From assembly GCF_008831285.2 (NCBI RefSeq), contig NC_045143.1:5341503-5405502 (forward strand): a stretch of DNA of 64,000 nucleotides, written 5' to 3'. Below the pieces are notes generated by a model. It was given only the letters and a program-made list of their open reading frames with translations, was not told where the DNA came from and did no database searches. A program made the position numbers and the translations under genes. The DNA comes from Nymphaea colorata (taxonomy: Eukaryota; Streptophyta; Magnoliopsida; Nymphaeales; Nymphaeaceae). This document shows positions 2,575 through 46,012 of this stretch, in pieces (the stretch's first letter is position 1; each line of letters begins with the position of its first letter).

Positions 2575-2674
2575 TAAGGGGAACTGGAAAAGCAGTTAAC
2601 TATTTGATTCCCCCCGCATTCTGCTTGCATTAGTGACTGCATGGCTTTGGCAAGGTCGTTGGTTAGATGATGAG
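2575..2674 (+). pseudogene. NYC1: NYC1 3' exon fragment (block A)
   Basis: Reads [10 protein letters not shown] then ALVTAW and GRWF-like residues, the C-terminal part of plant chlorophyll(ide) b reductase NYC1, a plastid short-chain dehydrogenase. It ends at a GT donor at the same place as the better copy at 45873-46012. A one-base deletion after TTGATTCCCCCC shifts the frame and gives TAG, and its 5' part is missing. It is a dead fragment, fused on its right to PERK-derived DNA. Confidence 0.7.
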
Positions 2675-2689
2675 GTAAATTATAATGTT

Positions 2690-2812
2690 GTCCAAAAGCG
2701 ATTAGCTTTGAACATAAAGAAATAACAAAAACAACAATGTAACTTGGGGATTTCTCCAATGAATTATCCACCGAAGCATGGTAGGTCCATATCCACGACT
2801 TGGAACAAATTT
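2690..2812 (-). other. Inverted PERK intron-1 segment
   Basis: The stretch CAACAATGTAACTTGGGG through CATATCCACGACTTGGAACAAATT is the reverse complement of 59085-59160 in intron 1 of the intact PERK gene, with scattered changes. It joins a PERK exon-2 fragment lying in direct orientation. The same join is present at about 46070-46330 in block F, so it predates the A/F duplication. Confidence 0.65.
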
Positions 2813-3727
2813 TACCACACCAACAAATGCACCACCACTTCGTCCACCATCACCTGGTCTTGCATTGGGTTTTTCTAAAAGCACCTTTACATATGAAGAA
2901 CTGGCGATTGCAACAAATGGGTTTTCATCAGGGAACCTCCTTGGTCAAGGTGGTTTTGGTTACGTCCACAAGGGAATGCTTCCCAATGGAAAGGAAGTTG
3001 CTATTAAGCAGCTGAAATCTGGCAATGGACAAGGCGAACGTGAATTCCAGGCAGAGGTGGAGATAATTAGGCGGGTGCATCATAAGCATCTACTTTCTTT
3101 CGTCGGTTACTGTATTAGTGGCACCCAGAGGCTGCTTGTTTATGAGTTTGTGCCCAACAACACACTTGAATTCCATTGACATGGTAATTCTGGATTGCGA
3201 TTCATATGTTTTTTCACTTTGGTATACGTGAAAATAATTTCTCATGGTCATTTCTCATTCTCCTTTCAACGGATGCTTGAGAAATAATGTCCTTTTCTTT
3301 ATTAACTAATAAAAATTTATCATCCTCGCTAGTGTTTTGCATGTAGATTTTTATAAGAAAAAAATGATAATTTTTTCACCCGATTTGATTATGACATTTC
3401 AGTTTGATGATCATGCTTTAAAATAATTTTGTTGCTTTGTGTTGTTATTGCTGCAGAAAAGAGTCGGCCAACAATTGATTGGACAGCGCGACTGAAAATT
3501 GCACTAGGGGCTGCAAGAGGACCTGCTTGTCTCCATAAGGACTGTGAGTTCCTCGGATCATTGAGTTAAATGAGGCAGTTACAAGGTTACAACATATAAT
3601 ACTAATATCTACTAGTAATATACTTGCGAAAGTTCTTCTCTAATGAAGATTTCCATCCACAGGTCATCCTCTTATAATGATATTAAGGTAGCAAATACAC
3701 TTCTTGATTTCAAATTTGAAGCCAAGG
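2813..3727 (+). pseudogene. PERK kinase pseudogene fragment (block A)
   Basis: Colinear with exons 2-4 of the intact PERK (57765-62421). The exon-2 part reads [20 protein letters not shown] through [20 protein letters not shown] and [10 protein letters not shown], then meets TGA at 3177 where the intact gene has TTG. The exon-3 part is at 3457-3540 and the exon-4 part at 3662-3727. In the latter about ten bases are deleted so that the HRD catalytic-loop codons are lost. The proline-rich ectodomain and transmembrane exon are absent. The reading frame ending at 3179 is therefore not a gene. Confidence 0.85.
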
Positions 3728-3809
3728 TCAGATGAGATACCTTCATCTATGTAAATTCTTGATGTTAGATGAAAATTCTTGATAATATCTAATATTCTGA
3801 TATATGTTA

Positions 3810-4399
3810 AATTATCTTTTTTTTTTTTTTAACTCATCAACTCGTAGAACTCTTTAATATGTTTAACTAATTCATCTATGATGAACCATTTTTATGTAGT
3901 CGAGCCAACTCAAATTTAGATGAGTTGATCCGAGCAGACCCGAGTTTAAACGAGTCGAGGTTTTACAACTCAAACTCGACTCATTTAACATTTTGAGTAT
4001 AAGTTTAGATGAAAACCCCCAACTCGTTTATAAAGGAGCGGAGCTCAAGTCAAGTTTTACAAGCGAGTTAGAATTGACTCAATGTATTGTGCAACCGTAG
4101 TTATAGTATATCAATTGATACAATGTTGAGACAGATCTTGGCTAGTTTGAGCCAACTTTATTGATTTTTCAACTCCCAAAGTTATATATATATATATATA
4201 TATATATATATATATATATATATATATATATATGTATCTCACGATCATACGAGTAGGAGATCACCTGCTGATTGCTTGCTCCTTCCATGCAAAGATTCTT
4301 CACGCTTGCGGAAGTTGGCGGTCAGATAGAGGAGCACACTTGGGTATAAAATTTGTTGGCACAATAATCTTGGTATTACACACTAATTTCAGTAATATC
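3810..4399. other. Block homologous to the flank downstream of copy B
   Basis: From the poly-T near 3820 to 4399 this matches 9990-10525: CTCGTAGAACTC, GAGCCGAGCAGACCCGAG, GCTAGTTTGAGCC, the AT microsatellite, then GTAGGAGATCACCTGCTGAT and AATTTCAGTAATATC. It joins PERK fragment DNA on the left, so 3800-3820 is a rearrangement breakpoint. No gene is seen. Confidence 0.65.
4183..4232. repeat. (TA)n microsatellite
   Basis: Uninterrupted TA dinucleotide run of about 50 bp. Confidence 0.95.
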
Positions 4400-4771
4400 T
4401 GTTGGATCTTTCTAGAGAGAAGATTATGCTGGAACCTTCTAGAGAGGAGATTACATAACTCTTCCAATTTTCTAGAGAGGAGATTACGTTGGATCTTTTT
4501 AGAAAAGAGATTATGCTGGAACTTTCTACAGAGGAGATTAAGATAATTCTTCCTAATTTTCTGTACTTTATCCCTAACGTTTCTTCCCTATCTTGAACCA
4601 ATTGTAAACTATAATACCTCTCTTGTATCTCCAATTGATTCAAGTTCTCAATAAATGAACTTCTCTCTTCTCTCGTGGATGTAGGCTACAAGACGAACCA
4701 CGTAAATTGGTGTCTTTCTCTGTTTTTACCTCATTCATGTCCTCTGTTTCTCTATCGTATGCTTTTTAACA
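4400..4771 (+). repeat. Copia 5' LTR with internal ~30-bp repeats
   Basis: Bounded by TGTT and AACA. Between 4409 and 4545 it holds about five imperfect copies of a unit of roughly 30 bp, each built on CTAGAGAGGAGATTA. Such direct repeats near the start of an LTR usually lie in U3, but no function can be shown here. Confidence 0.7.
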
Positions 4772-45104: not shown

Positions 45105-45310
45105 AAATGACTTTTTTTAAAATTTATATGTAAATTTAAAAAAAATTAAGGTGGGACTATAAAAAAAATTTATATGTAAAGTTTATATGTAAATTGAGTT
45201 GAGGTGGGGCTTTAAAAAAAATTTTATATATAAATTGAGGTGGGGCTAAAAAAAATTATATGTAAATTTTAAAAAAAATGAGGTGGAGCTATAAAAAAAA
45301 TTTATAGGTT
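45105..45310. repeat. Imperfect ~45-bp tandem repeats
   Basis: About four copies of a unit containing GAGGTGGGGCTA and TTTATATGTAAATT. Block A has a single shorter version near 2500-2570. Confidence 0.7.
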
Positions 45311-45350
45311 TGGCTCATCACCTTCACTTGGAACCTTCTTCTCAACTGCC

Positions 45351-45411
45351 TCTCTCTCTCTCTCTCTCTCTCTCTCTCTCTCTCACTCTCTCTCTCTCTC
45401 TCTCTCTCTCT
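45351..45411. repeat. (CT)n microsatellite
   Basis: CT run with one A interruption. Confidence 0.95.
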
Positions 45412-45640
45412 TATCATTCCCAACTGATGTCCTTATCACCCTTACTCTATTCTTCACTTTTGAGAGTCTTGAATTGAACCCTCTGATCAATTGAAAGTAG
45501 GCCTTACTACTATTTGCAAGTTTCTCATGTTAAGAAAACTCAATAATATTTGTGATATTCATGCAATAAAGGTGATAAGGAGATCAGTTGGGAGGTGATA
45601 AAGGTGATGGGGGAAACATTTAAGTGTTTAGCATCCACCA

Positions 45641-45809
45641 ATATATATATATATATATATATATATATATATATATATATATATATATATATATATATAT
45701 ATATATATATATATATATATATATATATATATATATATATATATATATATATATATATATATATATATATATATATATATATATATATATATATATATAT
45801 ATATATATA
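45641..45809. repeat. Long (TA)n microsatellite
   Basis: About 169 bp of uninterrupted TA, the longest in the window. It probably lies in former NYC1 intron DNA. Frames of repeated Tyr-Ile are not genes. Confidence 0.95.
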
Positions 45810-45872
45810 CTTGCATGTGCACACGGACTTACACTTAGTACATCAATCACATTTTGGGATTAGCTTTCTCAG

Positions 45873-46012
45873 CTATTTTTTCATACACCCTTGTTCCAAG
45901 AATGCTTGTTGTAAGGGGAACTGGAAAAGCAGTTAACTATTTGACTCCCTCCCGGATTCAGCTTGCATTAGTGACTGCATGGCTTGGGCGAGGTCGTTGG
46001 TTTGATGATGAG
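45873..46012 (+). pseudogene. NYC1: NYC1 C-terminal exon (block F)
   Basis: Reads [19 protein letters not shown] then TPSRIQLALVTAWLGRGRW and FDDE before a GT donor, the conserved C-terminal region of chlorophyll(ide) b reductase. The frame is open. It is preceded by a plausible TTTCTCAG acceptor but has no upstream dehydrogenase exons nearby; the rest of the gene is scattered in blocks D and E. The following DNA is PERK-derived, so no functional NYC1 can be made from here. Confidence 0.8.

Follow-up and report, generated by a model that had tools for sequence, protein, structure and literature searches.

Probable pseudogene fragments of the chlorophyll b reductase gene NYC1 beside a complete NYC1 in a neprosin cluster of Nymphaea colorata

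Unprocessed (duplicated) pseudogene fragments are a known category of sequence in tandem gene clusters, and the chlorophyll b reductases NYC1 and NOL belong to the short-chain dehydrogenase/reductase family. Both bear on the window analysed here, a stretch of 64,000 nucleotides of the 408-Mb Nymphaea colorata genome (C6:5341503-5405502), in which pieces of NYC1 lie among copies of a neprosin gene. Positions are given in window coordinates (genome position minus 5341502; negative values lie upstream), and the region analysed comprised the window with 50 kb upstream and 30 kb downstream (144 kb). Set against the first category, the NYC1 pieces are an ordinary set of duplicated pseudogene fragments: the locus shares with it intron-bearing partial copies next to an intact parent, along with loss of the start, loss of a splice acceptor and frameshifts, and nothing essential differs, the multiplied gene being neprosin and NYC1 its passenger. 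Set against the NYC1/NOL reductases, a gene model just upstream of the window aligns to Arabidopsis NYC1 from residue 61 to the last residue in the part of the alignment inspected, whereas the modelled start, exon 10 and most of the catalytic region are missing from the window pieces. With a probability of roughly 0.88, we read these pieces as dead partial duplicates of NYC1, that is, unprocessed pseudogene fragments, beside a parent that is still present and intact. Among the papers listed by a literature search, none describes NYC1 fragments or a neprosin-NYC1 cluster. The locus shows how a gene that is duplicated again and again can leave its neighbour behind in broken copies whose joins are still legible, and it is a cluster at which annotation pipelines could miscount NYC1 copies.

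Searching the window by tblastn with Arabidopsis NYC1 gave four sites above chance, all on the plus strand: 23803-24228 (E 7e-17), 45887-46012 (E 3e-16, 79% identity), 2570-2674 (E 1e-6) and 33447-33515 (E 8e-5). Beyond these, the best remaining forward match in the window had an E value of 1.1, the same as the best match on the reversed window used as control. Exon 1, at 32262-32640, was missed by the Arabidopsis protein and was identified through DNA alignment to the intact gene of the same genome, the alignment by which the extents of all NYC1 pieces were defined. The original prediction of four NYC1 pieces in one orientation thus holds for all four sites, but the homology extends further than it had proposed and takes in introns. 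At the DNA level the pieces are 92-95% identical to the intact gene, introns included. In the genome search with NYC1, in which only the best candidates were scored and 50 matches were listed, 14 of the 50 fell within C6:5330489-5405502, and the other 36 reached 25-49% protein identity. The pieces do not match other dehydrogenase families best, an outcome that would have spoken against their assignment; NYC1 is the closest gene among the matches listed.

Alignment to the intact gene also confirmed that the pieces do not overlap in NYC1 coordinates, save for the two copies of exon 9. That repeated piece had been labelled the last exon; it is in fact exon 9 of 10, the penultimate one, and exon 10 has no match in the window by either tblastn or DNA alignment. 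Exons 6, 7, 8 and 10 are covered by none of the window pieces, and exon 3 is represented by its last bases only. Every piece is truncated and most carry disabling changes, in agreement with the earlier statement that no single piece can make the enzyme. The introns are kept in the pieces, which identifies them as DNA-level copies and rules out a retrocopy origin.

The complete NYC1 model lies on the same strand as the pieces at C6:5330489-5335151 (-11013 to -6351) and ends 6.35 kb before the window. It has 10 exons, GT-AG boundaries at 9/9 introns and 1695 coding bases, with 564 codons and a single stop at the end; exon ends were set by eye under guidance from homology, the start ATG was picked by eye, and exon 1 is the least sure. 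The 564-residue protein matches Pfam adh_short (PF00106, 127.7 bits) over a complete dehydrogenase frame, which is found in this upstream gene only and in none of the window pieces. One complete NYC1 was found in this assembly. The gene is probably active and would reduce chlorophyll b to 7-hydroxymethyl chlorophyll a.

The presence of this gene decides a reading hinted at earlier, namely that the genome lacks a functional NYC1, that the window pieces are its sole remains and that chlorophyll b breakdown would be affected. The pieces by themselves are indeed unable to encode the enzyme, as that reading requires, but the recommended check for complete NYC1 and NOL genes elsewhere in the genome turned up the NYC1 model on C6 and a NOL-like gene at C2:13638700-13643332, the latter from six exon matches of 53-86% identity. 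Loss of NYC1 is refuted at the sequence level, and we give it practically no chance. In the NOL search the NOL-like exons were outscored, over longer frames, by several dehydrogenases with identities near 30%. One study (PMC3541173) assigns NYC1 and NOL to separate clades, with reference to work in which chlorophyll b degradation requires both. Because a complete NYC1 and a NOL-like gene are both present, the sequence gives no reason to expect a defect in chlorophyll b breakdown. The case illustrates that a window edge can make ordinary debris look like gene loss, the complete gene here having lain 6.35 kb beyond it.

The first piece described here, at 32251..33582 (+), matches -10910 to -9562 at 91.7% identity and runs from within exon 1, whose first 103 bases are missing, through intron 1 and exon 2 into intron 2. 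The modelled start codon is lost with those 103 bases; the remaining frame is open and the splice sites are kept. A DNA search of the genome with this piece returned two matches, itself and the intact NYC1. Against the intact gene it differs at 26/471 exon and 54/853 intron positions, so that exon divergence is close to intron divergence. With the first three codons after the join excluded, dN for this piece (0.049) is lower than dS (0.113), a difference that constraint on the intact partner alone could yield. Between the piece and a duplicated NYC1-neprosin spacer lies an insert at 33583-36868, for which no partner sequence was found within the 144 kb. On the minus strand this insert carries an endonuclease match (PF03372) that lies barely above threshold (25.3 bits, cut-off 24.5) and that we take to be LINE-like; two other reading frames from the insert gave no Pfam match.

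The second piece, at 23310..24378 (+), matches -9400 to -8341 at 92.4% identity and holds the last bases of exon 3, intron 3, exons 4 and 5 with the intron between them, and part of intron 5. At exon 5 the acceptor is lost, AC standing in place of AG, and the exon itself carries a 1-base deletion. Exon differences from the intact gene (10/278) are at half the intron rate (56/779). Divergence of a free copy from a constrained parent could give exon values equal to the intron value, as in the exon 1-2 piece, or half of it, as here. A partner search for 24379-25411 within the 144 kb gave simple repeats and weak matches only. No partner was identified for the right ends of either the exon 1-2 or the exon 4-5 piece.

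Of 96 neprosin matches listed genome-wide, the window holds five C-terminal exons, and these five are all on the plus strand: copy 0 at 1285..1689, the first neprosin after the intact NYC1, copy 1 at 9260..9664, copy 3 at 19869..20273, copy 4 at 30184..30588 and copy 5 at 43415..43819. Copy 2 is a degraded unit at 12491-14617, made of forward upstream and 5' parts (12491-14215) and an inverted 3' piece (14367-14617). The NYC1 pieces do lie downstream of neprosin copies, as had been noted, but the piece beginning at 32251 also lies upstream of the next copy, with the NYC1-neprosin spacer partly kept between them. This spacer duplicate, at 36869..38484 (+), matches -5408 to -3341 with a gap (36869-37732 corresponds to -5408 to -4569, and 37743-38484 to -4084 to -3341). 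More broadly, the stretch of spacer and neprosin that follows the intact NYC1 (-5408 to 2321) has a gapped counterpart behind the exon 1-2 piece, at 36869-44404. The source unit thus runs NYC1, spacer, neprosin, from upstream of the window into it, with spacer and neprosin duplicated.

Two joins between neprosin flank and NYC1 can be read with both partners known. A neprosin 3' flank at 32183..32259 (+), matching 10623-10699, meets NYC1 exon 1 with the letters CCTCA shared at 32251-32259, and another at 23221..23314 (+), matching 31654-31752, meets the exon 4-5 piece with GGAAG shared at 23310-23314. Both of these joins (2/2) therefore show 5-base microhomology. Random joins in the region shared at least 5 bases in 0.61% of 20000 trials. 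The automated check for the longest shared string covered any position in windows of 15-18 bases, and the placement at the join itself was read from the alignments. Microhomology is not general across the joins, because the join between exon 9 and PERK has a few filler bases and no clear microhomology. Comparable junctions come from maize structural-variant breakpoints, where one study (PMC5800051) likewise describes short exact microhomology of about 5 bases on average; the maize cases are presence/absence variants between lines, whereas the Nymphaea joins lie in one assembly. Its authors ascribe the 5-base peak in maize partly to retrotransposon insertion (PMC5800051).

These joins bear on how many NYC1 copies the pieces derive from. 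A single second copy of NYC1, broken once by the neprosin duplications, would make the pieces parts of one former gene; this shares the reading of dead fragments beside an intact parent and differs from ours in history alone. It would account for the absence of overlap among the pieces other than exon 9, and for the small distance between two of them in NYC1, where some 160 bases separate the end of the exon 1-2 piece (-9562) from the start of the exon 4-5 piece (-9400). In the window, however, their order is reversed: exons 4-5 come first, then a neprosin copy, then exons 1-2. The two pieces are also joined separately to neprosin 3' flanks, and two copies with different deletions are the simpler explanation. 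We regard a single second copy as unlikely.

The two exon 9 pieces each cover the 3' part of exon 9 and extend into the beginning of intron 9. Copy 1, at 2573..2719 (+), is 94.6% identical to the intact gene and has a 1-base deletion in the exon; copy 2, at 45887..46055 (+), is 91.7% identical, shows neither an indel nor a stop where it aligns, and is truncated only. Both run into sequence of a gene that we call PERK after the original prediction, profile support here covering the kinase domain only. In the first block, an inverted 95-base segment at 2724..2818 (-) matches 59166-59072, a stretch located 5' of the kinase exon at 59842, and is followed by a forward partial PERK copy at 2824..3808 (+) that matches 59842-60821 at 89% identity and abuts a neprosin 3' flank at 3807. 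The NYC1-PERK chimera in this block sits between the end of the neprosin match at 1868 and the neprosin flank starting at 3807. Copy 2 continues into the same inverted segment (46062-46133, 72 matched bases against 95 in the first chimera) and then into the forward PERK exon at 46305-46583. Because the join of NYC1 to inverted PERK is common to both copies, the exon 9 pieces probably represent one chimera that was copied with its block; we rejected an origin in two independent events on account of this same join and the matching blocks. No partner was identified for the left ends of the two exon 9 pieces. The second chimera also contains an insert of about 170 bases (46134-46304) that is absent from the first; it is flanked by a repeated 11-base sequence, GTCCATATCCA, and looks like a short mobile element.

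The ancestral order of the three genes can be considered against this arrangement. Each duplicate had been proposed to keep a different part of a neprosin-NYC1-PERK block. The neighbourhood of NYC1 and neprosin stands, on the shared spacer and flanks and the two microhomology joins; the order is not supported. No neprosin match is listed, among the 96, in the 50 kb upstream of the window, so the intact NYC1 precedes neprosin. The interval from the intact NYC1 to the first matched spacer (-6350 to -5409) has no PERK or other match within the 144-kb region. On these two negative results the order neprosin-NYC1-PERK is not supported, and the source order, as read from the locus, is NYC1 followed by neprosin. 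The PERK pieces join exon 9 through the inverted PERK segment and not directly, and the exon 9-PERK junction looks secondary. An ancestral order of NYC1-neprosin-PERK is possible, since the right end of the cluster holds the longest PERK copy.

From these features we propose the following history, which is less sure than the reading of the pieces as dead fragments; the direction and order of duplication are read from broken features within this genome. A unit of most of NYC1 and the adjoining neprosin may have been duplicated in tandem by end joining, with breakpoints in the neprosin 3' flank and within NYC1 exon 1; the new NYC1 copy would thus have lacked its start from the outset. Later unequal exchanges would have multiplied neprosin. 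Most of each dead NYC1 copy would have been removed by separate deletions and, in one interval, by the insert with the LINE-like endonuclease match. Exons 1-2 would have survived in one interval and exons 4-5 in another, and the last exon would have stayed open in five neprosin copies. Independently, an exon 9 piece would have been joined to PERK DNA with the inverted filler, placed behind neprosin and copied with the block. The duplication model put forward earlier comes close to this history for neprosin and NYC1 but departs from it in the order of PERK.

Jukes-Cantor intron distances to the intact gene are 0.066 for the exon 1-2 piece and 0.076 for the exon 4-5 piece. If plant substitution rates are assumed to lie between 1.5e-9 and 6.5e-9 per site per year, the pieces would be roughly 5 to 25 million years old. 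They are presumably not expressed. That they are transcribed from promoters on the neprosin or PERK side, and dampen the intact NYC1 through small RNAs or chimeric transcripts, strikes us as highly improbable; if true, it would link neprosin copy number to the timing of chlorophyll b loss.

The neprosin copies themselves were compared in the last exon only, which is open in 5/5 copies. There dN exceeds dS in 7/10 pairs and dS exceeds dN in 3/10, on small counts, which may hint at relaxed or diversifying selection. In this exon copies 3 and 5 are identical but for 1/405 bases, while the regions 17086-19533 and 40280-42865 are only 82% identical, a discrepancy that suggests gene conversion between the two. 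Near-identity of this kind, in a region rich in similar blocks, could also be expected if haplotypes or repeats had been misjoined in the assembly and the fragments were false. The NYC1 pieces nonetheless differ from the intact gene at about 5-8% of aligned bases and have separate indels, and two diverged copies carry the same exon 9-PERK join, which makes an assembly artefact very unlikely. In the 3' flank of copy 4, 31217-31573 (-) is a copia-type gag remnant (PF14244), and 21019-21291 (-), beside copy 3, reads similarly and links copies 3 and 4.
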